Assembly (NCBI GenBank): GCA_030266845.1
Contig: JAJDIT010000004.1
Location: 1 to 64,000, forward strand
DNA length: 64,000 nucleotides
Direction: 5' to 3'
Origin: Acholeplasma sp. OttesenSCG-928-E16
GTDB lineage: Bacteria; Bacillota_I; Bacilli_A; Acholeplasmatales; Acholeplasmataceae
Positions 32,845 to 61,105 of this stretch are shown piece by piece. Every line of letters starts with the position of its first letter. The stretch's first letter is position 1. The translations under genes and the position numbers were made by a program. The notes beneath the pieces were generated by a model, which was not told the DNA's origin, ran no database searches, and saw only the letters and a program-made list of their open reading frames with translations.

Positions 32845-34629
32845 TTATTCATTTTTCTCATCATATTGTAGTTCATACAAACTGTAATAAATTCCTTCTT
32901 TTTTCAATAATTCTTGATGACTTCCCATTTCCTTTATCTCCCCTTTTTGCATTACGATAATTTTATCGCTATGCTGAATTGTTGATAAACGGTGAGCGAC
33001 AATGAGCATTGTCGAAATATTCATCATCTTCTTTAATGATTCTTGGATTATCTCCTCTGTTTCTGAGTCGATGTTCGCGGTTGCCTCATCTAAAATCATT
33101 AGACTTGGCTTATAAGTGATTGCTCTTGCAAATGATATCAATTGTCTTTGACCAGTAGAAAAGTTATTTCCTCTTTCCAAAACCAAGTGACTATACTTGC
33201 CTGGGAGCTTTTCGATAAACGAGTCTGCCCCAACATAACGTGCAGATGTCATTACATCCTCTAAGGTTACGGAGTCATCATTTAGAGCAATGTTTTGATA
33301 GATTGTTCCACTAAACAAGAAAACATCTTGAAGCATTTGTCCGATGTGTCTTCGCAAACTAGAACGGGTAATCTTTTTAATGTCTATCCCATCAATTAAT
33401 ATAGTTCCTTTTTGAATTTCATAGTTTCTAACAATCAAACTTAGAATCGTTGTTTTTCCAGATCCGGTTGCACCAACAAACGCTACTGTCTCCCCATGAT
33501 TAACCGTGAAACTTACATCCTTTAAAACCCATTCATCATCAATATAAGAAAACCAAACATTTTTAAATTCTATTTTCCCTGTAAATGATTCTAATTCAAT
33601 CGCATCAACATCATCAATGATAGTTGGAGCAGTATCTAAAACATCAAAGATTTTTTCTGCACTAGAAAAAGCATCTTGAATTGTATTGAATAAATCCGAT
33701 ATTTCCTCAATCGGGCGGAAAAAATTGCCAACATATTGATATAGCATAATGACTGCACCAGCTGATATCGCGCCTATCATCACCTCTTTTGTCCCAAAAA
33801 TGAACACCATTATTGATCCAGCTATAGATATCAAATAAATAAATGGGCGGTAAACGGCAAAAATAGATATTTGTTTAAACCAGTTTTTTCTAATAAGTCT
33901 ATTTTTATCTTTAAACTCATTAGTTTTCTTTTCCTCTTGGGAAAATATTTGGGTAATCTTCATTCCTGATAGATTTTCTGATAAAAAGGCATTCAACTCA
34001 GAAATATTATTTCTTATTCTTCGATATGATTTTCTTGTCATCCCTCTAAAAACAATGGTGGCAACCAAAGCAACTGGAATCGCAATAAAAACTATTATTG
34101 CCACTTTAGCACTTATTACCAATAAAATTACCATTATGGCAATTAAATAAACAAAGTTTTTAATCAAATTAACAAACACCGATGTAAACAACTCTCCAAT
34201 CGAATTGGTATCATTACATACTCTCGTTACAAGTTTGCCAACTGGAACCTCATTTAACTGGCCAATCGAAAGACTTTCAATATGTTGAAAAACCTCATCT
34301 CTTAAACTAAAAACTATTTTCTGCCCCATAACTTGGAGCATAATCGTCTGCTTATAAGAAACAATATTTCCAATAACAAGCAAAACTACATATCCTATTG
34401 CCACTACAACAATGAAAGTTATTTTATAAGTATTAGAATGATCAGTGCTTGTTAATGTATCAATCATCATTCCAAGTAACGCTGGAGGCAATAAATCGAT
34501 AGTCAAAACTAAAAATGTCAACAACAAGGCGACGATTAACGTTTTTTTGTGTGGTTTTATGTACTTGAATAGTTTTTTAATTACTACCTTATCACCAAGG
34601 GTTCTGGTGTTTTCTTTAAAATCTTTCAT
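32845..34629 (-). CDS. Heterodimeric ABC exporter, short subunit
   Basis: A 594-residue half-transporter: six membrane helices (about 1-320) and a nucleotide-binding domain with Walker A GATGSGKTT, signature FSTGQRQLISFARA (first Ser-Gly pair altered) and Walker B LMILDEATANID with the catalytic Glu intact. With its neighbour this gives one complete ATP site (this Walker B plus the neighbour's SGGQ) and one degenerate site. This is the pattern of heterodimeric multidrug exporters of the BmrCD/LmrCD class. The substrate is unknown. ATG 34629 follows GGGGAGTGTTTAA directly at the upstream stop. Confidence 0.93.
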   Translation of the reverse strand: MKDFKENTRTLGDKVVIKKLFKYIKPHKKTLIVALLLTFLVLTIDLLPPALLGMMIDTLTSTDHSNTYKITFIVVVAIGYVVLLVIGNIVSYKQTIMLQVMGQKIVFSLRDEVFQHIESLSIGQLNEVPVGKLVTRVCNDTNSIGELFTSVFVNLIKNFVYLIAIMVILLVISAKVAIIVFIAIPVALVATIVFRGMTRKSYRRIRNNISELNAFLSENLSGMKITQIFSQEEKKTNEFKDKNRLIRKNWFKQISIFAVYRPFIYLISIAGSIMVFIFGTKEVMIGAISAGAVIMLYQYVGNFFRPIEEISDLFNTIQDAFSSAEKIFDVLDTAPTIIDDVDAIELESFTGKIEFKNVWFSYIDDEWVLKDVSFTVNHGETVAFVGATGSGKTTILSLIVRNYEIQKGTILIDGIDIKKITRSSLRRHIGQMLQDVFLFSGTIYQNIALNDDSVTLEDVMTSARYVGADSFIEKLPGKYSHLVLERGNNFSTGQRQLISFARAITYKPSLMILDEATANIDSETEEIIQESLKKMMNISTMLIVAHRLSTIQHSDKIIVMQKGEIKEMGSHQELLKKEGIYYSLYELQYDEKNE

Positions 34630-36684
34630 TTAAACACTCCCCTCAACGATACTTTCTAATGTTTGTCTTCTTACCATGTCTTTATATAAATCCGAACTAT
34701 GCAACAATTCATCATGGGAACCTATCCCAACTATTTTTCCATCATCCAAAAGAATAATTTTATCCATATGCTTTACAGTAGATATTCGGTGAGCAATAAA
34801 AATTGTCGTTTTTCCTTTTCTTATCTCATGTAAATTATGAATGATTGCTTCTTCGGTTTTGGTATCTACCGCTGATACTGAGTCATCTAGGATCAAAAAA
34901 TTAGCATCTTTATATAAAGCTCTTGCTATCGATATTCTTTGTTTCTGGCCACCTGATACGGTCACTCCTCTTTCTCCTAAAATAGTCTCATACTGCTGAC
35001 TAAATTCCATAACATTAGAATTAATGTCGGCTAATATTGCAGAGTCGACTACTTTTTCCATATTGATAGTTTCATCAGAAAAGGCAATATTATCGGCAAT
35101 CGTTTCAGAAAAAAGAAAGTTATCTTGTGGAACATATCCAATTGAACCTCTTAGGCTTTTTAAAGATAAATCCATTATATCGTGTCCGTCAATAAAAATT
35201 GTTTGGCTGGAAACATCATAAATTCTCATAAATAAATCTACAAGAGTCGTTTTTCCTGAGCCAGTTTTTCCTAATATTCCGATGTTTTCACCCTTTTTTA
35301 TTTCAAAGGATACATTCTTTAATACTGGTGATTCGCCATCAGGATACTTGAATGTAAGATTGTTAACCTTAATATTACCAAATAGATTGTCAACAACGGT
35401 TGCATCTTCCTTTTCTTCTACTCCTGGTTTTGAATCTAAAAACTCAGCGATTCTTCTGCTTGATGCCCTAGCTTGTCCGGTTATATAAAAGAACCTTGTA
35501 ATAGCTGAAATCGGCCATAACAGTTGTGAGTAAAAAGACATATATGTAACTAAAGATCCAGCAGTAAAACTAGAAGTGTCAGTAATAATGAAATACCCAC
35601 CAGCCGAAATAATAATCAAAATTATGATGTTTGATAAGATACTGACAACAATTTGCATTTGAGTCATTTGCTTAACATAGCGGATATTTTTTTCATAAAA
35701 ATCAGAACTTTTCTTTTTAAATAAGAGTAATTCTTTATATTCTCTAACAAAAGCCTTAATAACTGAGATACCTGAAAAACTTTCCTGAACAAAATCACTC
35801 ATATTTTCAAATGAGTCTTGTCTGACTCTAAATTTAAGGCGCATGCTCTTATTAACAATATAGACTATTATCATCAACAATATAATCGGAATTAGTAATA
35901 TTAAGGTCAAAATCGCCGAATCTTCATTTAAAGTAAACATTCGGTATAATGAAAACCCTCCTAAGAATAAACCATCAACTAAATGCAAAATCCCTGGGCC
36001 AAATGCTTCTCTGACTGCATTTAAGTCATTAATAAAGTAAGTCATTAATCCACCGACTTTTTTGTGTGAATAAAAATCCTGAGAAAGGTGGGTTGCATGA
36101 TTAAACATAACTCTTCTTAATTCATATTCTATTTGCCTAGCAGTTCCAAAAATCGCAAAACGCCATAAGAATCTTCCAAGTGCAATAACTAATGCATGAA
36201 GAATAATTTGGATACAAAGTTCCCAAATATAATCAAATTTATCTTCATTAATAACATTCCAGTTTGGATCATATATTTTCGCTTTTTCTAAATTTTTGAT
36301 TTCATCGTTACTAAATAAAAAGCTATGAATTTCCCCTTCAAAAGAATAAGAAATAGTCGTTTCATTACCGCTTTTAGCTACTGTTGGTAGAATATCATTA
36401 CCAGAAAAAGTTATTTCATCATCTTTATATGTGTATATAAATGTTTCTGTCTTTTCATCTTTTTTAAATGATGCCTCACCAACATCTAAAAAAGTAAATA
36501 CGGCATTATCATCTTTTTTAGAAGCTAGGGTCGTGGTAGAAGGATTGATGGTATCGGTTATTCTTCCGATAATCATCGGAACTTCTAACTGGATCCAGTC
36601 GATAGCAATCAAAATGGCTATTCCAATTAAAAAAGCCCAAAGATACTTGATGTAATATTTTGTAAAGTGCTTACCAAAAACCAT
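34630..36684 (-). CDS. Heterodimeric ABC exporter, long subunit with extracellular insertion
   Basis: A 684-residue half-transporter. Residues about 46-150 insert a hydrophilic domain between the first two membrane helices (TFLDVGEASFKKDEKTETFI, ISYSFEGEIHSFLFS), predicted outside. The nucleotide-binding domain has Walker A GKTGSGKTT, signature VSGGQKQRISIARA and Walker B FLILDDSVSAVD, where Asp replaces the catalytic Glu. Long-plus-short gene pairs with such an insertion are typical of YheH/YheI (BmrCD). Start ATG 36684 follows AGGAGGGAATT, next to an 18-bp palindrome. Confidence 0.93.
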   Translation of the reverse strand: MVFGKHFTKYYIKYLWAFLIGIAILIAIDWIQLEVPMIIGRITDTINPSTTTLASKKDDNAVFTFLDVGEASFKKDEKTETFIYTYKDDEITFSGNDILPTVAKSGNETTISYSFEGEIHSFLFSNDEIKNLEKAKIYDPNWNVINEDKFDYIWELCIQIILHALVIALGRFLWRFAIFGTARQIEYELRRVMFNHATHLSQDFYSHKKVGGLMTYFINDLNAVREAFGPGILHLVDGLFLGGFSLYRMFTLNEDSAILTLILLIPIILLMIIVYIVNKSMRLKFRVRQDSFENMSDFVQESFSGISVIKAFVREYKELLLFKKKSSDFYEKNIRYVKQMTQMQIVVSILSNIIILIIISAGGYFIITDTSSFTAGSLVTYMSFYSQLLWPISAITRFFYITGQARASSRRIAEFLDSKPGVEEKEDATVVDNLFGNIKVNNLTFKYPDGESPVLKNVSFEIKKGENIGILGKTGSGKTTLVDLFMRIYDVSSQTIFIDGHDIMDLSLKSLRGSIGYVPQDNFLFSETIADNIAFSDETINMEKVVDSAILADINSNVMEFSQQYETILGERGVTVSGGQKQRISIARALYKDANFLILDDSVSAVDTKTEEAIIHNLHEIRKGKTTIFIAHRISTVKHMDKIILLDDGKIVGIGSHDELLHSSDLYKDMVRRQTLESIVEGSV

Positions 36685-36826: not shown

Positions 36827-38044
36827 ATGAAAACAATCAATAGATTTTTAAACTACGTCAAAATCGATACAAAATCTGATCATCAGTCAGACACTTATCC
36901 TTCTACAAAAAAGCAATTTGACTTAGCAAATTTATTAGCGAAAGAACTAAAAGAAATGGGATTAGAAGTTGTTCTTGATGATTATTGTTATCTATATACA
37001 AAAATACCTAAAAATATCAATAAAGATATCTTAAAGGTTGGTTTTATCGCCCATCTAGACACCTCACCAGATGCAAGCGGCAAGAACGTTAATCCAAGAA
37101 TAATTGAAAATTATGATGGCATGGATATAATCTTAAACGATAAACTTTCCATAAAAACATCTGAGTTTTCTTTTCTTAGTAGCTTAAAAGGAAGTGACTT
37201 AGTAGTCACTGATGGAAATACCTTATTAGGAGCTGATGATAAAGCGGGTGTTGCCGAAATAATGAGTCTAGTTGAAACATTAGTAACTGATTCTAGCATC
37301 AAGCACGGTGATATTTATATATGCTTTACCCCAGATGAGGAAATAGGTAGAGGAACCGATAAGTTTAACTTTGATTTATTTAAAGCTGATTTCGCTTATA
37401 CGGTTGATGGTGGAGCCGTTGATATAATATCATATGAAACATTTAATGCCGCTTCTGCTTTAGTAACAGTAACTGGTAAATCAATCCATCCTGGTAGCGC
37501 AAAAAATAAATTAGTAAATGCCTCATTGTTGTTGATGGAGTTCAATAATTTATTAGACCACAATAAAAGACCTGAATATACTGAGGGGTATGAAGGATTT
37601 AATCACTTAAGTGAGATGAAAGGCGAAGTGGAAAGAGCAAATGCTAATTATATAATTAGAAATCATGATAAAAATGAATTTGAAAAACAAAAAAATTCAT
37701 TTATCAAAATAAAAGACTATTTAAATGATAAGCATGGTTATTTGGCTTTTAGTGTCGATATTAAAGATAGCTATTATAATATGTATGAAGTATTAAAAAA
37801 TCATAAAAACGTCATCGACCTTGCTGAAAATGCCTTAATTGATGTTGGATTAACCCCAAAGTTTGAAGCAATCAGAGGGGGTACCGATGGAGCTAGATTA
37901 TCTTTTGAAGGTTTGCCTTGTCCTAATTTAGGAACCGGAGGTTACAATTTTCATGGTCCTTTTGAGCTATTATCTATTAACGAAATGAATGCGGCAGTTA
38001 AGGTTTTACTTTCTATAGTTAAACTTCTAACAAATAATAATTAA
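36827..38044 (+). CDS. pepT: Peptidase T (tripeptide aminopeptidase)
   Basis: A 405-residue M20B metallopeptidase. The zinc ligands are in VGFIAHLDTSPDASG (His-Asp), LLGADDKAGVAEI (bridging Asp), CFTPDEEIGRG (Glu-Glu base), AYTVDGGAVD (Asp) and near the end NLGTGGYNFHGPFE (His). It cleaves the N-terminal residue of tripeptides in the cytoplasm. ATG 36827 follows AAAGGATGGCTCT. The gene is convergent with the CoA transferase and overlaps its 3' end by 4 bases. Confidence 0.95.
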   Translation: MKTINRFLNYVKIDTKSDHQSDTYPSTKKQFDLANLLAKELKEMGLEVVLDDYCYLYTKIPKNINKDILKVGFIAHLDTSPDASGKNVNPRIIENYDGMDIILNDKLSIKTSEFSFLSSLKGSDLVVTDGNTLLGADDKAGVAEIMSLVETLVTDSSIKHGDIYICFTPDEEIGRGTDKFNFDLFKADFAYTVDGGAVDIISYETFNAASALVTVTGKSIHPGSAKNKLVNASLLLMEFNNLLDHNKRPEYTEGYEGFNHLSEMKGEVERANANYIIRNHDKNEFEKQKNSFIKIKDYLNDKHGYLAFSVDIKDSYYNMYEVLKNHKNVIDLAENALIDVGLTPKFEAIRGGTDGARLSFEGLPCPNLGTGGYNFHGPFELLSINEMNAAVKVLLSIVKLLTNNN

Positions 38045-39069
38045 TCATAAAAATTTATTGGCAATTTGATACTCTTAAATTGCCCTTTTTTTATGTTTTT
38101 TAAATCTTTAACTTCGGTACTATCAAACGCCTCTTTGATATCATTAATCGGTCCAGCAGAAATATTGTTTTCTTTTAATAGCTTAAGTATTTCTTTTTTT
38201 GGATACTTTATTAATTTTTCATTAATTTTTCCTTCTAATTCATCTATTTTTGAAATTCTTTTTTCATTAGTTTGAAATTTTTCTTTATCTAGTCCAATCA
38301 AATCCGCTAGTCTAAAAAACATTTCATCGTTAGCTATCGCGATAATTATAAAACCATCTTTAACTTTATATGAATTATATGGAGCTATTGAGTAATGACG
38401 ATTTCCCTTTCTTTTTTCGCAGTAATCTAAATTTAAGTATCTGGTGGCTTCTACTTGAATCAAGCTAAGTGCTGATTCTAATAATGAACAGTTAATTTCC
38501 TTACCTCTATTGGTTTTTTCTCTTTCTAAAAGAGCGGCTAAAATACCAATTACAAGATTTTGACCGGTTACATAATCAATAACAGGAACTCCAGTTTTTT
38601 GGGGGACATCATATTCATTACCGTTTAAACTCATAAATCCGCTTAACCCTTGGATAACGATATCTTGGCTTCTTGTGTTTTTGTTATCTGTATTTCCATA
38701 GCCATTAATTGATGCATATATCAATCTAGGATTAAGTTTTTTTATGTTTTGATATGATATTCCGATTTTATCGTAAGAAGATTGAATAGAATTATGAATT
38801 AATACATCTGATTCCTTGATTAATTTAAAAACTAACTTCAAATCTTCTTCATTTTTAAAGTCGATATAAATTACTTCTTTTTCTGAATTTAAGGCATAGT
38901 AATAATCAGATAGATCATCACTTAATTTCATTCCATAGTGTCTTGATTCATCTTTATAACCTTTTCTTTCTATTTTTATGACCTCTGCGTTTAGATCTTT
39001 TAAGATATTTCCCGCTAGAGGAGCTGAAAAAATTCTACCAAATTCTATGACTTTTATTCCTTTTAACAT
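38041..39069 (-). CDS. CaiB/BaiF family III CoA transferase, short C-terminus
   Basis: A 342-residue protein. The start MLKGIKVIEFGRIFSAPLAG and QDIVIQGLSGFMSLNG are diagnostic; the Asp in SQDIVIQG corresponds to the catalytic Asp that forms the acyl anhydride. Relatives usually run 380-410 residues; this one ends at LPINFYD, about where others continue past PIKFSxTP. It moves CoA between carboxylic acids. It starts 4 bases after the radical SAM stop, with AAGGAGTAAATAA before ATG, so it is the last gene of the NRPS operon. The peptidase T terminator lies inside its 3' coding part. Confidence 0.88.
   Translation of the reverse strand: MLKGIKVIEFGRIFSAPLAGNILKDLNAEVIKIERKGYKDESRHYGMKLSDDLSDYYYALNSEKEVIYIDFKNEEDLKLVFKLIKESDVLIHNSIQSSYDKIGISYQNIKKLNPRLIYASINGYGNTDNKNTRSQDIVIQGLSGFMSLNGNEYDVPQKTGVPVIDYVTGQNLVIGILAALLEREKTNRGKEINCSLLESALSLIQVEATRYLNLDYCEKRKGNRHYSIAPYNSYKVKDGFIIIAIANDEMFFRLADLIGLDKEKFQTNEKRISKIDELEGKINEKLIKYPKKEILKLLKENNISAGPINDIKEAFDSTEVKDLKNIKKGQFKSIKLPINFYD
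38060..38092 (+). terminator. Intrinsic terminator of peptidase T, inside the convergent gene
   Basis: GGCAATTT (38060-38067) and AAATTGCC (38077-38084), then CTTTTTTT on plus. The stem lies within the last 18 codons of the CaiB-type gene on minus. Confidence 0.82.
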
Positions 39070-39073
39070 TTAT

Positions 39074-40258
39074 TTACTCCTTAAACAATTTAGTTTGATA
39101 TCCAAGACACTTAAAGCCATTTTCATTAACTATCGGTATCTCATTTTCATTAATTTTTAATTCTTTTCGTACCCAAAAACAAATACTAATTGAAATACCG
39201 TATTTGGCGGCAATTTTCTTAATCTTTTCGATCCAATATATTGATTTTTCTCTACTTGGAGCTGTTCTTGACCTTTGTTTAACATGGTTTAGGTTGTCAT
39301 TATTAAAATATGTTTCAAAGACTTTTTTGAAGATATCAGGATCATATTCTTTTATCACTGATGCTAATAGGGTCATATTCCAAATATTAGCGGTCAAAAA
39401 TTCAGGTTTAATGTTGATTATATGATACTTATTAAGTTGTTTAAAGAAATCATCAAGTAGTTCATCATTTAAGACACTAATTAAAATGGGCTGAACTAAA
39501 GCTGAATTAGCCATAATTCCATTTTCTTGACACAATTTAACCGCTTCTAGTCTTGATTCATAAGAAGCTGCATATGGCTCTAAGTATTCTCTAACGCCAT
39601 TTGGGAATATCGACAATGAAGTGTTAAACTGCATTTTTCCTTTTAATTTTTTAAAAAGATCTAGAATACTAACCCCATCATATTGATAGTTTAGAGCTTC
39701 TACTCCCGCTTTTGAAGCGATAAAAAGTCGGATCTTAGAATCACTTCTTTTTTTATAGTGATTAATGAACTCTAAAAGAATTTTATGGGCAATTCCAGTT
39801 TGGAGGGTTGCTTCACAGAAAGCTTCTGTTTTTGGTGAGAAGTAAAAATAATGATCTTCATGATAGTATTGTTCTAGCTTTTTTCTTACTAATTCATGGT
39901 AGTTTTCATAAACGATTAATTCCTGATGGATACCATCATCAACTAAGCAATACGCACAACCAACATTGCAGCTTAAAACTGGATTTATTTCATAGGTTTG
40001 AATAGGACAAGATCCAGTGTAGTTATGAATCAATAACTCGCTATTTAAGTCTATTTTTTCGATTTTTACTTCCATCTTTGGAAATAACTTTCCTTCTTCG
40101 ATCCTTTTTTTAAAATATTTAGATCCTTCAATAGCTTCTTCTTTTACTTTTTCACTTACGTTGATATTAATAAAGTCATCAAAATTCAACTCTCTCATAG
40201 TAAAGTTTTTGTTGGTATAGATTGATTTATCATTTTCACTTAATCTTGTTAATTTCAT
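39074..40258 (-). CDS. Radical SAM enzyme of the spore photoproduct lyase (SPL) type
   Basis: A 394-residue protein. The cluster motif is C97-NVG-C101-AY-C104 (CxxxCxxC), inside TYEINPVLSCNVGCAYCLVD. Other SPL-like segments are YFYFSPKTEAFCEATLQTG, IRLFIASKAGVEAL and a C-terminal Cys384 in FKCLGYQTKL; an extra Cys84 precedes the motif. No sporulation or UV-repair context is visible. It overlaps the upstream NRPS gene by 4 bases (ATGA) and is followed 4 bases later by a CoA transferase, so it most likely modifies the NRPS product or its building block. Confidence 0.85.
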   Translation of the reverse strand: MKLTRLSENDKSIYTNKNFTMRELNFDDFININVSEKVKEEAIEGSKYFKKRIEEGKLFPKMEVKIEKIDLNSELLIHNYTGSCPIQTYEINPVLSCNVGCAYCLVDDGIHQELIVYENYHELVRKKLEQYYHEDHYFYFSPKTEAFCEATLQTGIAHKILLEFINHYKKRSDSKIRLFIASKAGVEALNYQYDGVSILDLFKKLKGKMQFNTSLSIFPNGVREYLEPYAASYESRLEAVKLCQENGIMANSALVQPILISVLNDELLDDFFKQLNKYHIINIKPEFLTANIWNMTLLASVIKEYDPDIFKKVFETYFNNDNLNHVKQRSRTAPSREKSIYWIEKIKKIAAKYGISISICFWVRKELKINENEIPIVNENGFKCLGYQTKLFKE

Positions 40259-43200
40259 TTTTTAGCTCCTTTTATTAAATTTATTATTATATCTGTGTTT
40301 TCTTTGAGCATTATTTCTGCATGGTTACATGTGAAATACTTGCAGTCTGCTTGTTGATGCCCAAGCTTTTGATCGTTGTATTTTTTTGCCGACTGACTGG
40401 ATACAAATAGTGTGTATTTATTCTTTCCTTCATATAGCAGATATTTATTTAGTAATTTCATAATTTTCTTTTGTTCACTTAGAAACTTGAAAGAAAAAAA
40501 ATCTTTAATATGCTTTATTGCGTATTTAAACATTTTTTTATATCCTCTTAAACGAAAAACTAAAAGACAATTTCTAAGCGCTATTATAATTGCCGATCTT
40601 AACCTAATTGGATATAAAGCATAATTAGGGGTATCAATCATATAGACTGATGAGTTATCACCTCCTAATTGTCTTGATAGTTCAAAGGCAAATGTGCCTC
40701 CTCCTGAATAACCTATTAAAGTATAGTGATCATATTTATAGTCATTTAACAATTCTAAAGATATATCTTTACAAAATGACTCTACTGATTCATACCGATG
40801 TAAATTATTGGAATTAATAGCTAAAATTGGAGTGTCATCACTTATTGAGTCAATTAGATTTTTGTAAGAAGCTACATCACCAGTTAAGTCAAAAAAGATT
40901 ATAAAGGGGGTCTTATTTCCATCTTTAATTAGTGTTATGTTTTTAGTTCTTTTACCTTCTTTTATGAAATCATACAATTTGTTTACTGTTGGATTTGAGT
41001 ATAGATCAGTAATCAAAAGACTAGTCTTAAATTCTCTTTCTATTTTTGTGATCATTTCGATTAGTTCAATCGAGTTGATCCCATAATTCATAAAGTCATC
41101 ATGATAATTGATATCTTCTAAGGCAACTTGTCTAATTATTTCTAATAACTTTTTCTTTTCTCTGGTCTTTTTTGTTATATCATTATTGTTTATTTTAATA
41201 TTAGGCTTGTCGCTATTACCGCGTGGTATTTCCTTAGCTAAAATGATTTTTTTAATGCTCACATAATAAGGTAAATTATTAGTCAAATACTTTTTATACT
41301 TATTTAAGTTGATTTTGCCGACAACATACTGAATAATACTGTTTTTTATATATATTGTATAGGAATCTTTTATACCCTGATATTTTTTTGAAATGGTATC
41401 AATTGCGTCTAGTTCAATTCGAAATCCATTTAGTTTTATTTGCCTGTCTTTTCTAGTTAAAAATATATTTTCATTATATTCATTTTGCTTTATGATATCT
41501 GCACTTTTATATCCTTTATATTTAGTTTTTTCATCAATGAAAAAACGTTCCTTTGTCAGCTTATAATTATTTAGATATCCTAATCCAACATTAGGACCGA
41601 TAATAAATAATTCTGCCTCATTTTCGTCAGTATATGAGAGTCTTTCATAATAGGATGAAAATGGCTTGCCAAATGGATATTCATCCATTTTTTTGGTGAT
41701 GATTTGATAATGCGATAGAACAGTACATTCAGCAGGTCCATATCCGTTTATTACTTTATACTTAGTATGTTCATTATAGTATGTCATTTTAGCCCCTGCA
41801 ATCATTAGGGAATCAATATTATCATCTGGATATAATTGATTATAAAGCTGTCCTAGAGCGGTTGTAAAAATAAGATTTTTAATGTTATTTTCACATACGT
41901 AATTATGAATTAGTTTGATGTCCTTCCTTATTTTATCACTAGCTATAAATAAAGTTGATCCCGTCTTTAAAGCGAGGATAGTTTCGATTAAAGAACCATC
42001 AAAATCTAAGGAACAGGTAGAAAGGACACTTGATCTTGATAAACCATCATATGCTTCATTTATACTATTATAAAAAGCTAATAAGTTTGGAGTGGTAATG
42101 ATTACACCTTTTGGTTTACCAGTTGAACCAGAAGTATACATTACATATGCTATGTCTCCATTTATTGATTTGCAAGAACTCATATTTGGCAATTTGGTAA
42201 TGTTTATCTCATTATCTAGCTCATATAAAGATTGTTCTTCGTTATATTTTAAGAGGGTTTTAATTTTCGTTTCACCAATAATGTCATCCCTGATATTCTT
42301 ATTATGTAAATTTGATAATACAACAAATGCTTTACCTGCCTTTAAAATACCAAGAAGTCCAACATAAAAATAAACTGACCTTTCATTTAAAAGGCCTATT
42401 AAGGAGCCTTCATCCTTGATTGCTAGGGCTACATTACTAGAATATTGATCTAATTCTTTATAGGTTAGTTTGTGATAGTCATCAACTAATGATAAAGATT
42501 CAAGGTTGTTCTTAATTGAATCATCGATTGCTTTCATTAATGTTTCTTTTTTAGGGATATTTATTAGATCATCTTGTTTTGTGATAAATTTGATGGCATA
42601 TTTTTTAATATTGTTTAAAATACCATCAATCTCTTTTTCTTTGTAGGTACTTACCGAATAATCAACTGCAATTTCAAGATTACTTCCTTTTGGTTTGAGA
42701 TTAGGATTAAGCTTGAAATTAAGTTCAGTTACATCTTCATTTGGTGAAAAGCGTGTTATTGGGTATGTCAAACCAGAAAAAGGAAGAGAATTTATAATGA
42801 ATTTGGAAGGCATCAAGACAAAAGGATCATTTTTAGAATATTTATGAATCAAATCGTCTGCCACAAATTGGTGTCTTGAAAAAGCCTCATCTAAAAGAAT
42901 CGTAAAACGATCTAAAAAACTAGAGTATGTTTCCTTTTTTAAAGACATTACAAGAGGAATAGTGGATGCACACATCCCGGCTAGTCCCTTTTCATGATCT
43001 CCTCTATTATGATGGGTTGTAGAAATGGTGATATTTTCTTTCCCAAAAAACTCAAAAAGGGATAAAAATGTTGCCGCATAGATAACTTTAAAAACTGAGA
43101 TTTTGAGACTCTTACTATATGCTAATAAATCATCTGTCTCTGATTTTAAAAACTCCATACTAATTCTACTAGAAGAAATATCGTCTCTCAATAAATATTG

Positions 43201-43743
43201 TCTTTCCTTAGATTCTTTTAATATAGAATCAAAAAAAAGATCATCTTCTTCTTTTTCTTTACTTTTAAGGTATGCTTCTTCTTTATTAATAAATTCCAAA
43301 TATGAATGCTTTTTTATCGTTACTTCACTGCTTGTTAATTTTTTTTCAATATAATTTGTAATGAGTGCTATTCCATAAGCATCAATAATTGAATGGTGAA
43401 AAATAAAATAGTATCCTCTTTTTTTTCCATCTATTAAAAAAAAGCGATATAAATCATCATCAAATAAATCAAAGATTTCATCATGAAATTGATAATCGCT
43501 ATCCTTAATCAAAAAATCCTTTTCCTTATATTTACATATCTTCTGATATATTTTATTTTCACTCTTTATAAATCTAATTCTAAGACAATCAAAAAAAGAA
43601 ATTGCTTCATTTAATGCATTTTTTATTTCAAATGGTGATTTATCATTAATTTCGACAAAGCCATACATATAAGAAAACTTACTATTAGGATATATTTCTT
43701 GATTAATGATTATTCTTTTTTGTGGGCTTGTAAGTGGATGCAT
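40255..43743 (-). CDS. Single-module nonribosomal peptide synthetase (C-A-T-TE)
   Basis: 1162 residues. Condensation domain about 1-400 with the active site HHSIIDA (His116-His117, Asp121). Adenylation domain about 405-850: A3 YVMYTSGSTGKPKG (533-546), A4 with FDGS (581-584), A5 INGYGPAE (665-672), A7 YKSAD, A8 TRKDRQIKLNGFRIEL, weak A10 RGNSDKPN. Carrier domain about 865-930 with Ser891 in YGINSIEL. Thioesterase about 945-1162 with GYSGGG (Ser1013), Asp1037 and His1141. Asp582 at the amino-group-binding position implies an alpha-amino acid substrate. No phosphopantetheinyl transferase is in the window. RBS AAAGGAAAAAGACAT precedes ATG 43743, with a TATAAT at 43764-43769. Confidence 0.93.
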   Translation of the reverse strand: MHPLTSPQKRIIINQEIYPNSKFSYMYGFVEINDKSPFEIKNALNEAISFFDCLRIRFIKSENKIYQKICKYKEKDFLIKDSDYQFHDEIFDLFDDDLYRFFLIDGKKRGYYFIFHHSIIDAYGIALITNYIEKKLTSSEVTIKKHSYLEFINKEEAYLKSKEKEEDDLFFDSILKESKERQYLLRDDISSSRISMEFLKSETDDLLAYSKSLKISVFKVIYAATFLSLFEFFGKENITISTTHHNRGDHEKGLAGMCASTIPLVMSLKKETYSSFLDRFTILLDEAFSRHQFVADDLIHKYSKNDPFVLMPSKFIINSLPFSGLTYPITRFSPNEDVTELNFKLNPNLKPKGSNLEIAVDYSVSTYKEKEIDGILNNIKKYAIKFITKQDDLINIPKKETLMKAIDDSIKNNLESLSLVDDYHKLTYKELDQYSSNVALAIKDEGSLIGLLNERSVYFYVGLLGILKAGKAFVVLSNLHNKNIRDDIIGETKIKTLLKYNEEQSLYELDNEINITKLPNMSSCKSINGDIAYVMYTSGSTGKPKGVIITTPNLLAFYNSINEAYDGLSRSSVLSTCSLDFDGSLIETILALKTGSTLFIASDKIRKDIKLIHNYVCENNIKNLIFTTALGQLYNQLYPDDNIDSLMIAGAKMTYYNEHTKYKVINGYGPAECTVLSHYQIITKKMDEYPFGKPFSSYYERLSYTDENEAELFIIGPNVGLGYLNNYKLTKERFFIDEKTKYKGYKSADIIKQNEYNENIFLTRKDRQIKLNGFRIELDAIDTISKKYQGIKDSYTIYIKNSIIQYVVGKINLNKYKKYLTNNLPYYVSIKKIILAKEIPRGNSDKPNIKINNNDITKKTREKKKLLEIIRQVALEDINYHDDFMNYGINSIELIEMITKIEREFKTSLLITDLYSNPTVNKLYDFIKEGKRTKNITLIKDGNKTPFIIFFDLTGDVASYKNLIDSISDDTPILAINSNNLHRYESVESFCKDISLELLNDYKYDHYTLIGYSGGGTFAFELSRQLGGDNSSVYMIDTPNYALYPIRLRSAIIIALRNCLLVFRLRGYKKMFKYAIKHIKDFFSFKFLSEQKKIMKLLNKYLLYEGKNKYTLFVSSQSAKKYNDQKLGHQQADCKYFTCNHAEIMLKENTDIIINLIKGAKK

Positions 43744-43763
43744 ATGTCTTTTTCCTTTATTTA

Positions 43764-43769: not shown

Positions 43770-43837
43770 TCCTATAATAAAATAAAATGCATCCCAATAG
43801 AGACACATTTATTATTAAAATTGTACTTGTATCAAAA

Positions 43838-44200: not shown

Positions 44201-45007
44201 TTATTTTAAATCTGATTTACTAAAAATCAATATTCCCAAACCTGAAAAACCAAGAATGTAAACTATGTTGGAAACAAATAATACTACCGTTGTATAACTA
44301 GGTATTAATGGTGTTCCAGCTAGTGGTAGCATTTCCGTTATCAACATATTTTGGTAAGCTGGCGTCAAGGTTAGAAGAAAAACAAATACCTCGTTAACAT
44401 TTGATAAGTCCGTAGCTGAAAAGAGAATAACCATTAAAATAAACATCGAAGACATGAACATTGCTACTGAAAATAAAGTGGTCCATATGCTCTTCTTTAA
44501 TGAAAAAGCAATAAAAACAATAACAGTAATAATAGTTGTATAGTGCAATAATCCAATAAAAAAGAGTACCACTGCTTTAGCGAACAGTTCGCTTGTTAAG
44601 CCGTTTTCTGAATATCCACCAATCATGGTTCCTACCATACTGGATACAAAAAAGTAAACAAAATAACAAATGAATCCATAGACAAGTGATACTATTAAGC
44701 GGCTTAAAAATATCAAACTTCTCCTCTTACCTATTAAAACCTTATTTCTGATTGTTCCGTTTTTAAAATCTCTAGTTGCTACAACACCTACTAATATCGG
44801 AATGAATATAGCGATATCACTCATTAGGGATGCGGCAGTTTGAACAAATTGCTCTCCTGTTGGTAATCCTTCTCCCCCAAGTCCACTTGTTGCCCCCATA
44901 CTAAGTAGAATCATTAACACTGAATAACCAGCAATAACGATAATAGTTGTTATGGTTGAGCGGTCTTTAAATAATGCGTAAAAATCTGATTTTAGTAATC
45001 TAGTCAT
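44201..45007 (-). CDS. ABC-2 type permease
   Basis: About 268 residues with six membrane segments, preceded by MTRLLKSDFYALFKDRSTIT and containing the typical loop VVATRDFKNGTIRNKVLIGKRRSLI after the second segment. It pairs with the ATPase gene it overlaps. ATG 45007 is preferred because GGGAGGTGGCCATA precedes it; GTG 45016 would lie inside that site. Bacitracin- or lantibiotic-efflux-like systems have this layout; the substrate is unknown. Confidence 0.85.
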   Translation of the reverse strand: MTRLLKSDFYALFKDRSTITTIIVIAGYSVLMILLSMGATSGLGGEGLPTGEQFVQTAASLMSDIAIFIPILVGVVATRDFKNGTIRNKVLIGKRRSLIFLSRLIVSLVYGFICYFVYFFVSSMVGTMIGGYSENGLTSELFAKAVVLFFIGLLHYTTIITVIVFIAFSLKKSIWTTLFSVAMFMSSMFILMVILFSATDLSNVNEVFVFLLTLTPAYQNMLITEMLPLAGTPLIPSYTTVVLFVSNIVYILGFSGLGILIFSKSDLK

Positions 45008-45917
45008 TATGGCCACCTCCCATAACTTTAAAATAGTAACTTTCTATATCATCTTCTATTTTCTTAACATTTGTTACTTTGATATCAACCTTATTAAGGA
45101 GGATAACAATTTCACTTACATCAATCTCTTCATAAAATCTAATAATGTTGTTTCCAATTAAATCGTATCTAGCTTGTCCAAATAAAACTTCATCCGCCTT
45201 AGCGTTTGAAGATACGAAAAAGTCAGTTTTTATTTCTTTATCTTGAATATCATCAGCATTGATCTCTTTTATGAGTTCTCCTCTATGGATAAATCCATAT
45301 CTTGTTGCTACTTTAGCTAATTCTGATAATATATGGCTAGAAATTAAAAATGTAATCCCGTTTTCTTTATTTAACCTTTGGATCAATACTCTAATACCAG
45401 CAATGCCTTCTGGATCTAAGCCATTCATTGGTTCATCTAAGATCAAAAACTCCGGCTCTGATAATAAGGCCATCGCGATTCCTAGCCTTTGTTTCATGCC
45501 AAGGGAAAAAGACTTTGCCTTTTTATTATTACCTATTAAGTAACCTAATCCGACACTTTGTAAAGTATCTCCAATTATCGAATCATCACTTTTACCAATT
45601 AATCTTAATTGAACAGATAAATTATCGGTTGCTGATAAGTTAAGATGAATAGATGGAACTTCTACTATGGCACCAACTTTACTTCTTGCGGAGTAAATAT
45701 CTTGTTCGTTGGCATTCACGCCAAAAAGTTCATAAGAACCTTCATCCGATTTAATTAATCCAGTAATCATTCTAATTAAAGTTGTCTTTCCGCTTCCGTT
45801 TTCACCGATAAAGCCATAGACATCTTTCTTATGAATAGTCATGTTAGCACCTTTAACAGCGTAAACATTACCATATCTTTTAGAAAGATTATTAGTTTTT
45901 AAGATTATATCCTTCAT
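45000..45917 (-). CDS. ABC transporter ATPase for the ABC-2 permease
   Basis: A 305-residue protein with Walker A GENGSGKTT, Q-loop region IVEVPSIHLNLSATDNL, signature FSLGMKQRLGIAMALL and Walker B FLILDEPMNGLDPEG, then SSHILSEL. The DrrA/BcrA type drives export by the downstream ABC-2 permease. ATG 45917 follows GGAGGACAC. The degV terminator ends a few bases before this ribosome binding site, leaving no room for a separate promoter, so expression probably depends on read-through. Confidence 0.92.
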   Translation of the reverse strand: MKDIILKTNNLSKRYGNVYAVKGANMTIHKKDVYGFIGENGSGKTTLIRMITGLIKSDEGSYELFGVNANEQDIYSARSKVGAIVEVPSIHLNLSATDNLSVQLRLIGKSDDSIIGDTLQSVGLGYLIGNNKKAKSFSLGMKQRLGIAMALLSEPEFLILDEPMNGLDPEGIAGIRVLIQRLNKENGITFLISSHILSELAKVATRYGFIHRGELIKEINADDIQDKEIKTDFFVSSNAKADEVLFGQARYDLIGNNIIRFYEEIDVSEIVILLNKVDIKVTNVKKIEDDIESYYFKVMGGGHND

Positions 45918-59155: not shown

Positions 59156-61105
59156 TTAACCATTACTTTTTAATTCGAACAACAAGTCCCTTAACTCAGC
59201 TGCTTTTTCAAAATCTAGATTCTTAGCTGCTTCCTTCATCGCTTTTTCGAGACGATTCATTTCTTTTTGGGTGACCTTTTTTGAATTGTCTTTTAAAAGG
59301 TCTTCTAATATATCTTCTTTCATTGAAATTTTATCTAGTATATCTTTTTTGATAGTTACTGGTGATACATTATTTCCCTTATTAAAGCTTTCTTGTAAAG
59401 CTCTCCTTCTATTGGTTTCATCAATAGCAACTCTCATGCTTTCACTGATTGTATCTGCATACATTATAACATAGCCATTTTCGTTTCTAGCGGCTCGGCC
59501 GATTGTTTGAATTAGGCTTCTTTCCGAACGTAAGAAGCCTTGTTTATCAGCATCTAAAATCGCTACTAAGGAAACCTCTGGCAAATCTAATCCTTCTCTT
59601 AGTAAATTGATTCCAACCAAAACATCATACTTTCCAACTCTTAGATCTCTTAAGATGGTAAGTCGTTCTAGTGATTTTATTTCACTATGTAAATAGGCTA
59701 CCTTTAATCCTAATTTTTTAAAGTAGGCTGTTAACTCTTCGCTCATCCTAATGGTTAGTGTGGTAACAAGTATTCTTTCATCTTTTTCAATTCTCTTTTT
59801 TATCTCAAAAAATAAGTCATCCATCTGACCTTCGCTTTTCCTTACCTCAATGATTGGATCTAGTAAATATGTTGGCCTAATGATCTGTTCAACAACTGGG
59901 ATATTCTTGCTTAATTCATAGTCACCAGGAGTTGCAGATAAATAAACAACCTTATCTAGCTTACTTTCAAACTCCTCAAAATTTAATGGTCTATTATCGA
60001 GAGCACTAGGTAATCTAAAACCATAATCTACTAAAGTTTGTTTTCTTGATCTATCCCCTCTATACATTCCTCTTACCTGAGAGACTGTAACATGTGATTC
60101 ATCGATAATCATTAAAAAGTCATCGCCAAAAAAATCGATTAATGTGGCTGGGGTTTCCCCCTCTTCTCTAAGTGCTAGATGTCTTGAATAGTTTTCTACT
60201 CCTGAAGTCATTCCCATCTCCTCTAGCATTTCAATATCATAGTTTGTCCGCATTTCTATTCTTTGAGCTTCTAACAGTTGATTGTTTTCTTTAAAATATT
60301 TGATTCTTTCTGCTAATTCTTCTTTGATTCGTCTTAATGATTCTTGTAATTTGTCCTTATTTGTAACGAACAAAGTATTGGGAAAAATCGTAACATATTG
60401 TAGAGATTCAATTGCTTTTCCAGTTACCACATCAAATCTTTTAATAGTTTCAATATCATCACCAAAAAAAGTTATTCTAATGCCTTGGGAATGCTTATTA
60501 GAAGGTATTATTTCGATACTTTCGCCTCTAACTCTAAATGTACCTCTTTTAAAGTCTATATCATTTCTTTCATATGCTAAGTCAATCAGTTTATTAATAA
60601 GTTTATTTCTTCCAAATGATTCACCATTTCTTAGTACCACTAGTGAATTCTTATAATCATCTGGGTCTCCTATTCCATATATACAAGATACAGATGCCAC
60701 GACTATTACATCTTCACTATCAAGCAAAGAGGCAGTTGCGCTATGACGCATCTCATCTATTTCATCATTAATTGATGCATCTTTTTCAATATAAGTATCC
60801 TTAGAAACAACATATGCTTCTGGCTGATAATAATCATAATAAGAAATAAAAAATTCCACTCTGTTTTCTGGAAAAAAAGACTTTAATTCTCCATATAACT
60901 GCCCAGCTAATGTCTTATTATGTGCCAGTACTAGTGTTTTTTTCTTAGTTTTTTCAATTAGTTTGGCAATAGTAAAAGTCTTACCGGTACCTGTTGCCCC
61001 AAGTAAGACTTGTTGTTTAATCCCTGACTCTATGTTTTTTTCTAGGGTATCAATAGCTTTAATTTGATCCCCTTTTGGTTCATAGGGCGAAACTAATTTA
61101 AACAT
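59156..61105 (-). CDS. uvrB: UvrABC excision nuclease subunit B
   Basis: A 649-residue helicase-like repair protein. Walker [11 protein letters not shown] (about 38-47), beta-hairpin region [24 protein letters not shown] in [19 protein letters not shown], motif VI region [20 protein letters not shown], and a C-terminal UVR motif ([20 protein letters not shown]). It loads on damaged DNA with UvrA and recruits UvrC. ATG 61105 follows GGTGATATAA. uvrA and uvrC are not here; the gene interrupts the exopolysaccharide string. Confidence 0.97.

Follow-up and report, generated by a model that had tools for sequence, protein, structure and literature searches.

Organization of the locus

The window analysed here is a stretch of 64,000 nucleotides from Acholeplasma sp. 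OttesenSCG-928-E16. At 38041-43743, it carries three tightly spaced minus-strand genes encoding an NRPS, a radical SAM enzyme and a class III CoA-transferase, and the ORFs match exactly those of the preliminary description. According to the ORF list, the NRPS and radical SAM ORFs overlap by 4 bases and a 4-base gap separates the radical SAM and CoA-transferase ORFs. The features are as follows.

38041..39069, minus strand: class III (CaiB/BaiF) CoA-transferase gene, 342 aa (ORF, Pfam, 4ed9 alignment)
38575..38577, minus strand: catalytic Asp165 of the CoA-transferase, in VIDYVTG (4ed9 alignment, residue check)
39074..40258, minus strand: radical SAM gene, 394 aa (ORF, Pfam, homologues, AlphaFold model)
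39947..39970, minus strand: CNVGCAYC [4Fe-4S] motif, CX3CX2C, C97/C101/C104 (family alignment)
40255..43743, minus strand: NRPS gene, single module C-A-T-TE, 1162 aa (ORF, Pfam domains, catalytic residues)
40279..40881, minus strand: thioesterase (TE) domain, S1013/D1037/H1141 (Pfam, likeness to type I thioesterases)
40963..41148, minus strand: carrier (T) domain, Ser891 (Pfam PP-binding, residue check)
41158..42555, minus strand: adenylation (A) domain, code DGIIMAGVLK, Asp235 kept (Pfam, alignments)
42577..43740, minus strand: condensation (C) domain, N-terminal, in starter position, HHSIIDA motif (Pfam, genome match, motif)
43753..43758, minus strand: AAAGGA, ribosome-binding-site-like, 5' of the NRPS ATG (sequence)
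43785..43810, minus strand: terminator-like hairpin separating the GNAT and NRPS genes (pattern scan)

The hairpin at 43785..43810 suggests that the operon is a transcription unit apart from the GNAT gene; the pattern scan of the region returned five hairpins against 1.7 expected from shuffles. At the other end, the CoA-transferase gene and the peptidase T (PepT) gene stand tail to tail, with 4 bases in common, and a terminator-like hairpin of PepT (38060-38084, opposite strand) lies within the 3' end of the CoA-transferase gene. The stretch 44201-45917, next to the GNAT gene on its upstream side, encodes an ABC ATPase (lantibiotic-protection-like, TIGR03740 at 4e-63, below the cut-off) and an ABC2 permease. 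This pair may serve self-protection, or may be unrelated to the operon.

The stretch 38044-59156 is a variable segment. In relatives, PepT and the gene at 59156-61105 are much closer together, while the window holds between them the operon, the ABC system and a surface-polysaccharide-like cluster. Five relatives have the neighbouring PepT-ABC-ABC block, some of them with TldD/PmbA genes, without the operon. The ABC exporters at 32845-36684 and PepT were rejected as pathway genes since the same block is kept in family members that lack the operon. The G+C content of the operon is 26-30%, as compared with mostly 32-35% in the core flank; that of the polysaccharide region is low too. Apparently, the operon reached its host, a gut-type bacterium whose genome is very small, by horizontal transfer. 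Misplacement of the contig is unlikely because it carries the syntenic block of the family, and a plasmid origin was discarded, no plasmid match having been found for the radical SAM protein. Among 391 genomes sampled from the phylum, no other was found to have the radical SAM gene. A search of ~1980 genomes by taxon and one genome-collection scan gave no second case of the complete three-gene set.

The NRPS module and the CoA-transferase

The preliminary description of the NRPS as a C-A-T-TE enzyme with all core residues holds. Pfam identifies Condensation (1.8e-26), AMP-binding (1.2e-33) and PP-binding (3e-12) domains, all above cut-offs, and a Thioesterase domain slightly below its cut-off (1.6e-5, 25.7 bits for 26.4). 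The catalytic residues of HHSIID at 116-121 (H117, D121), as well as S891 and S1013/D1037/H1141, are all present. Its identity to BLAST matches is ~25% at most, and its motifs diverge (for instance, A7 is YKSAD).

A genome without any phosphopantetheinyl transferase (PPTase) had been considered to speak against the system. In fact, a 204-aa Sfp-type PPTase is encoded on another contig of the same genome, nearest to the AusB, AcpT and HetI models, all below cut-offs. At L022 1432-2498, its gene directly follows one for a protein of 150 aa that contains the motif HNCEHFC and is LRAT/NlpC-like by eye, one base being common to both ORFs.

Alignment with LgrA and more than 40 A domains corrects the specificity code given earlier at one position: residue 278 is Ile and not Phe, the other listed positions being right. 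The code thus reads D-G-I-I-M-A-G-V-L-K, catalytic Lys included, and the same comparison gave no match to one particular amino acid. Since Asp235 is kept, an alpha-amino acid is expected. From the DGIIMAGVL pocket, this substrate is probably a nonpolar amino acid, at low confidence.

The NRPS is the sole C-domain protein of the genome (1.13 Mb, 86% complete), and the genome search revealed no NRPS partner upstream. Therefore, the C domain must get its donor from elsewhere. In a C-domain tree, it groups weakly (90/87, long branches) with C domains that stand at the N-terminus of one-module NRPSs from the same order. This placement is consistent with a starter role, which it does not prove; use of an acyl-CoA is predicted. 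Starter-C NRPS modules take acyl-CoA donors in lipopeptide initiation, and the present enzyme resembles them by its N-terminal C domain without upstream module, followed by A-T and a TE. It differs in that it has one module only, that a class III CoA-transferase, and not an acyl-CoA ligase, would provide the donor, and that a radical SAM gene is located inside the operon.

One-module NRPSs are encoded in the same family and order (L066 8491-12342, L068 7761-11645, L069 7632-11735, L070 5967-9611 and L071 5315-8917). Their codes are near-identical (DIESVGSIAK or DMETVGSIAK), and a reductase domain ends all three of those scanned with Pfam (L066, L068 and L070). The window NRPS was rejected as an ordinary C-A-T-R enzyme of this order, from which its release domain and code differ; the C domains may be related.

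Class III CoA-transferases activate acids. The earlier assignment of the third gene to the CaiB type agrees with its class III fold in Pfam (CoA_transf_3, 2.8e-88) and with the presence of the catalytic Asp165. The enzyme is shorter than its relatives, covering residues 10-357 of 385 in 4ed9, with a C-terminus ~30 aa short. Its best model, NF052585 (1.9e-72), is matched with 244 bits for a cut-off of 750; the equivalog cut-off that would place it in a named substrate subfamily is thus not reached. The nearest enzymes are of the succinate type (NF052585; structure 9br6). It is the sole class III CoA-transferase of the genome, and among 90 relatives one other genome has such an enzyme above cut-off, with none in the same family.

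The radical SAM family and its gene partners

By its motif, by Pfam (Radical_SAM, 1.5e-6, 28.9 bits, slightly below the 29.5 cut-off) and by Foldseek, the 394-aa protein is assigned to the radical SAM superfamily, in an undescribed family. C97, C101 and C104 are invariant in 17 homologues. Across the wide family, seven Cys are invariant, these three plus C84, C243, C360 and C384, and the window protein has all the invariant residues. An auxiliary cluster is possible. The AlphaFold model (pLDDT 84.9) used with Foldseek has MqnE, LipA (lipoyl synthase) and BioB (biotin synthase) as best matches, all loose (TM ~0.4). The protein had been called an SPL-type radical SAM enzyme. The radical SAM part of this name, with C97/C101/C104, is confirmed; membership of the SPL family was rejected, since no SPL profile is found at E 1e-3 and no SPL structure occurs among the best 50 Foldseek matches listed. 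One homologue scores 18.9 bits to the SPL model, for a cut-off of 437.55, a distant similarity only. The best profile of the window protein is that of the PA0069 family (E 2e-7, far below cut-off). Likeness to PA0069/Rv2578c and SPL-like proteins is distant and extends across the radical SAM core, whereas the present family is far below their cut-offs, has four more invariant Cys and has other gene partners. No account of the operon or of the radical SAM family was found in open-access papers, an absence that is weak evidence.

A search of a genome collection yielded 20 homologues with 43-52% identity. A Bacteroidota sample added 12 sequences from a clade further removed, with ~40-42% identity to the window protein, which is itself divergent (branch of 1.42 in the tree). 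For the preliminary description, homologues that never co-occur elsewhere would have spoken against the system. Co-occurrence is seen for the radical SAM enzyme and the NRPS, which are found together in three other phyla (Desulfobacterota, Planctomycetota and Bacteroidota), and not for the full trio, so that the link of the transferase rests on one operon. An NRPS adjoins 2 of the 20 homologues, in Desulfobacter vibrioformis (L002) and in a Planctomycetaceae MAG (L005), and in each of the eight Bacteroidota loci examined, 6 bp separate the radical SAM gene from a giant NRPS downstream. The Bacteroidota NRPSs (~4185 aa where complete) have three or four modules and a terminal reductase. An ABC pair accompanies them, and genes for Band_7, periplasmic-binding and DUF697 proteins are divergently placed. 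Reductase and ABC genes are also present in the Desulfobacter and Planctomycete clusters, with Band_7 recognized by Pfam in the former and by eye in the latter. This conserved multi-phylum cluster (L102-L109 and L115-L122 in Bacteroidota, L002/L123 in Desulfobacter, L005/L124/L125 in Planctomycetaceae) has no description that we could find in the open-access literature.

Loading modules that lack Asp235 are no rarity among NRPSs. In these clusters, Asp235 is missing from all nine loading A domains (seven from Bacteroidota, one each from Desulfobacter and the Planctomycete), as compared with none of the 41 other A domains of the set. The loading codes begin with ILR in the seven Bacteroidota and are an identical IAWFRASGSK in Desulfobacter and the Planctomycete. 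Because the two types of code differ, one common acid does not follow. It should be noted that the Planctomycete loading module sits on another contig of the MAG; its link to the cluster is drawn from the common code and from 42% identity to the Desulfobacter domain. The window operon is like these clusters in that the same radical SAM family directly adjoins an NRPS. They are multi-module systems with loading modules, reductase release, an ABC pair and, for some of them, Band_7 and DUF697 proteins, whereas the window encodes a single module that ends in a TE for release, and a CoA-transferase; none of an Asp235-less loading module, reductase release or an ABC pair is found in its operon. Code-sharing between the window A domain and the other radical SAM clusters was also considered and rejected, no common code having been found.

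Most other homologues belong to rumen-type Fibrobacter and Bacteroidales, where the radical SAM gene is followed by that of a ~404-aa protein and then by WbqC. Such a tight radical SAM - ATP-grasp-like (Cp1B-related) - WbqC operon occurs at L006 9001-12256, with equivalents in L003-L020. The profile of the ~404-aa family matches Cp1B, the ATP-grasp ligase of the E-64 pathway, at 1.7e-19. Cp1B, to which the ligase next to the radical SAM gene of these rumen genomes is thus related, couples an amino acid with a non-amino acid, which is dicarboxylic; the acid of E-64 is made by an O2-dependent oxygenase (PMC12568646). Cp1B is absent from the window, which would use a CoA ester and NRPS chemistry instead. 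No carrier protein is encoded in the rumen operons, in agreement with a free substrate for the radical SAM enzyme.

A tentative pathway and its alternatives

Loading A domains without Asp235, a Cp1B-like ligase and a CoA-transferase all suit a non-alpha-amino acid. Three unrelated activation systems therefore accompany one radical SAM family. This suggests, without proving it, that the family supplies or modifies an unusual acid building block, which would be the simplest account. In the window, the operon can tentatively be read, at somewhat less than an even chance, as a mini pathway to a small N-acyl amino acid. The PPTase would activate the T domain. The radical SAM enzyme would make or modify an unusual free carboxylic acid devoid of alpha-amino group, and the CoA-transferase would convert it to a CoA ester. 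The A domain would load one alpha-amino acid, the C domain in starter position would acylate it using the acyl-CoA, and the TE would release the N-acyl amino acid. The acid-making role is proposed because the family swaps partners, between loading A domains without Asp235 and the Cp1B-like ligase. Against this best reading have to be counted the uniqueness of the trio, the divergence of the radical SAM protein, the low identity of the NRPS, the difference between loading codes, the separate contig of the Planctomycete loading module and the occurrence of Asp235-less loading modules in other NRPSs. The pathway sketched in the preliminary description, with an intact module, acid activation and a radical enzyme, stays plausible, except for late tailoring; we infer from the gene partners that a role in acid making is better supported.

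Radical SAM enzymes often act in tailoring, and the CoA-transferase could activate an ordinary metabolite, such as succinate or a short-chain acid. The radical SAM enzyme would then act late, on the acyl-amino acid while it is T-bound or once it is released. The closeness of the transferase to succinate-type enzymes would agree with this. However, the same radical SAM family adjoins ATP-grasp and WbqC genes in operons devoid of carrier protein, as well as NRPSs of very different architecture, and we hold late action to be unlikely, though still deserving attention. The radical SAM enzyme might also make a non-proteinogenic alpha-amino acid for the A domain, the transferase supplying an ordinary acyl-CoA. 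That the other radical SAM clusters share an acid-type loading domain, and no code with the window, makes this quite unlikely, even if the window A domain keeps Asp235 and has a code matched to no single amino acid. Finally, it is highly improbable that the genes stand together by chance, or that they are a decaying import, without joint product, as could be imagined from a unique gene set, rare in relatives, with a C-terminally short transferase and divergent NRPS motifs: spacing is tight, frames are intact, all catalytic residues and a PPTase are present, and the radical SAM and NRPS pairing recurs in other phyla.

The acid-making reading has a wider form, more speculative and in our opinion rather doubtful, in which anaerobes would plug an unusual acid, made independently of oxygen and perhaps dicarboxylic and warhead-like, into three interchangeable activation systems. 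Hints of a dicarboxylate are the Arg found in both types of loading pocket (IAWFR..., ILR...), the dicarboxylic substrate of Cp1B and the succinate-type transferase.

The operon itself is of less interest than the finding of a radical SAM family whose acid-activating partners can be exchanged. If the acid-making reading is true, a class III CoA-transferase would be tied to the supply of an NRPS starter unit, for which no precedent was found in the open-access papers searched. Moreover, an uncharacterised radical SAM family would become a testable source of one building block for anaerobes of several phyla, and the trio of the window would be the smallest set to reconstitute.
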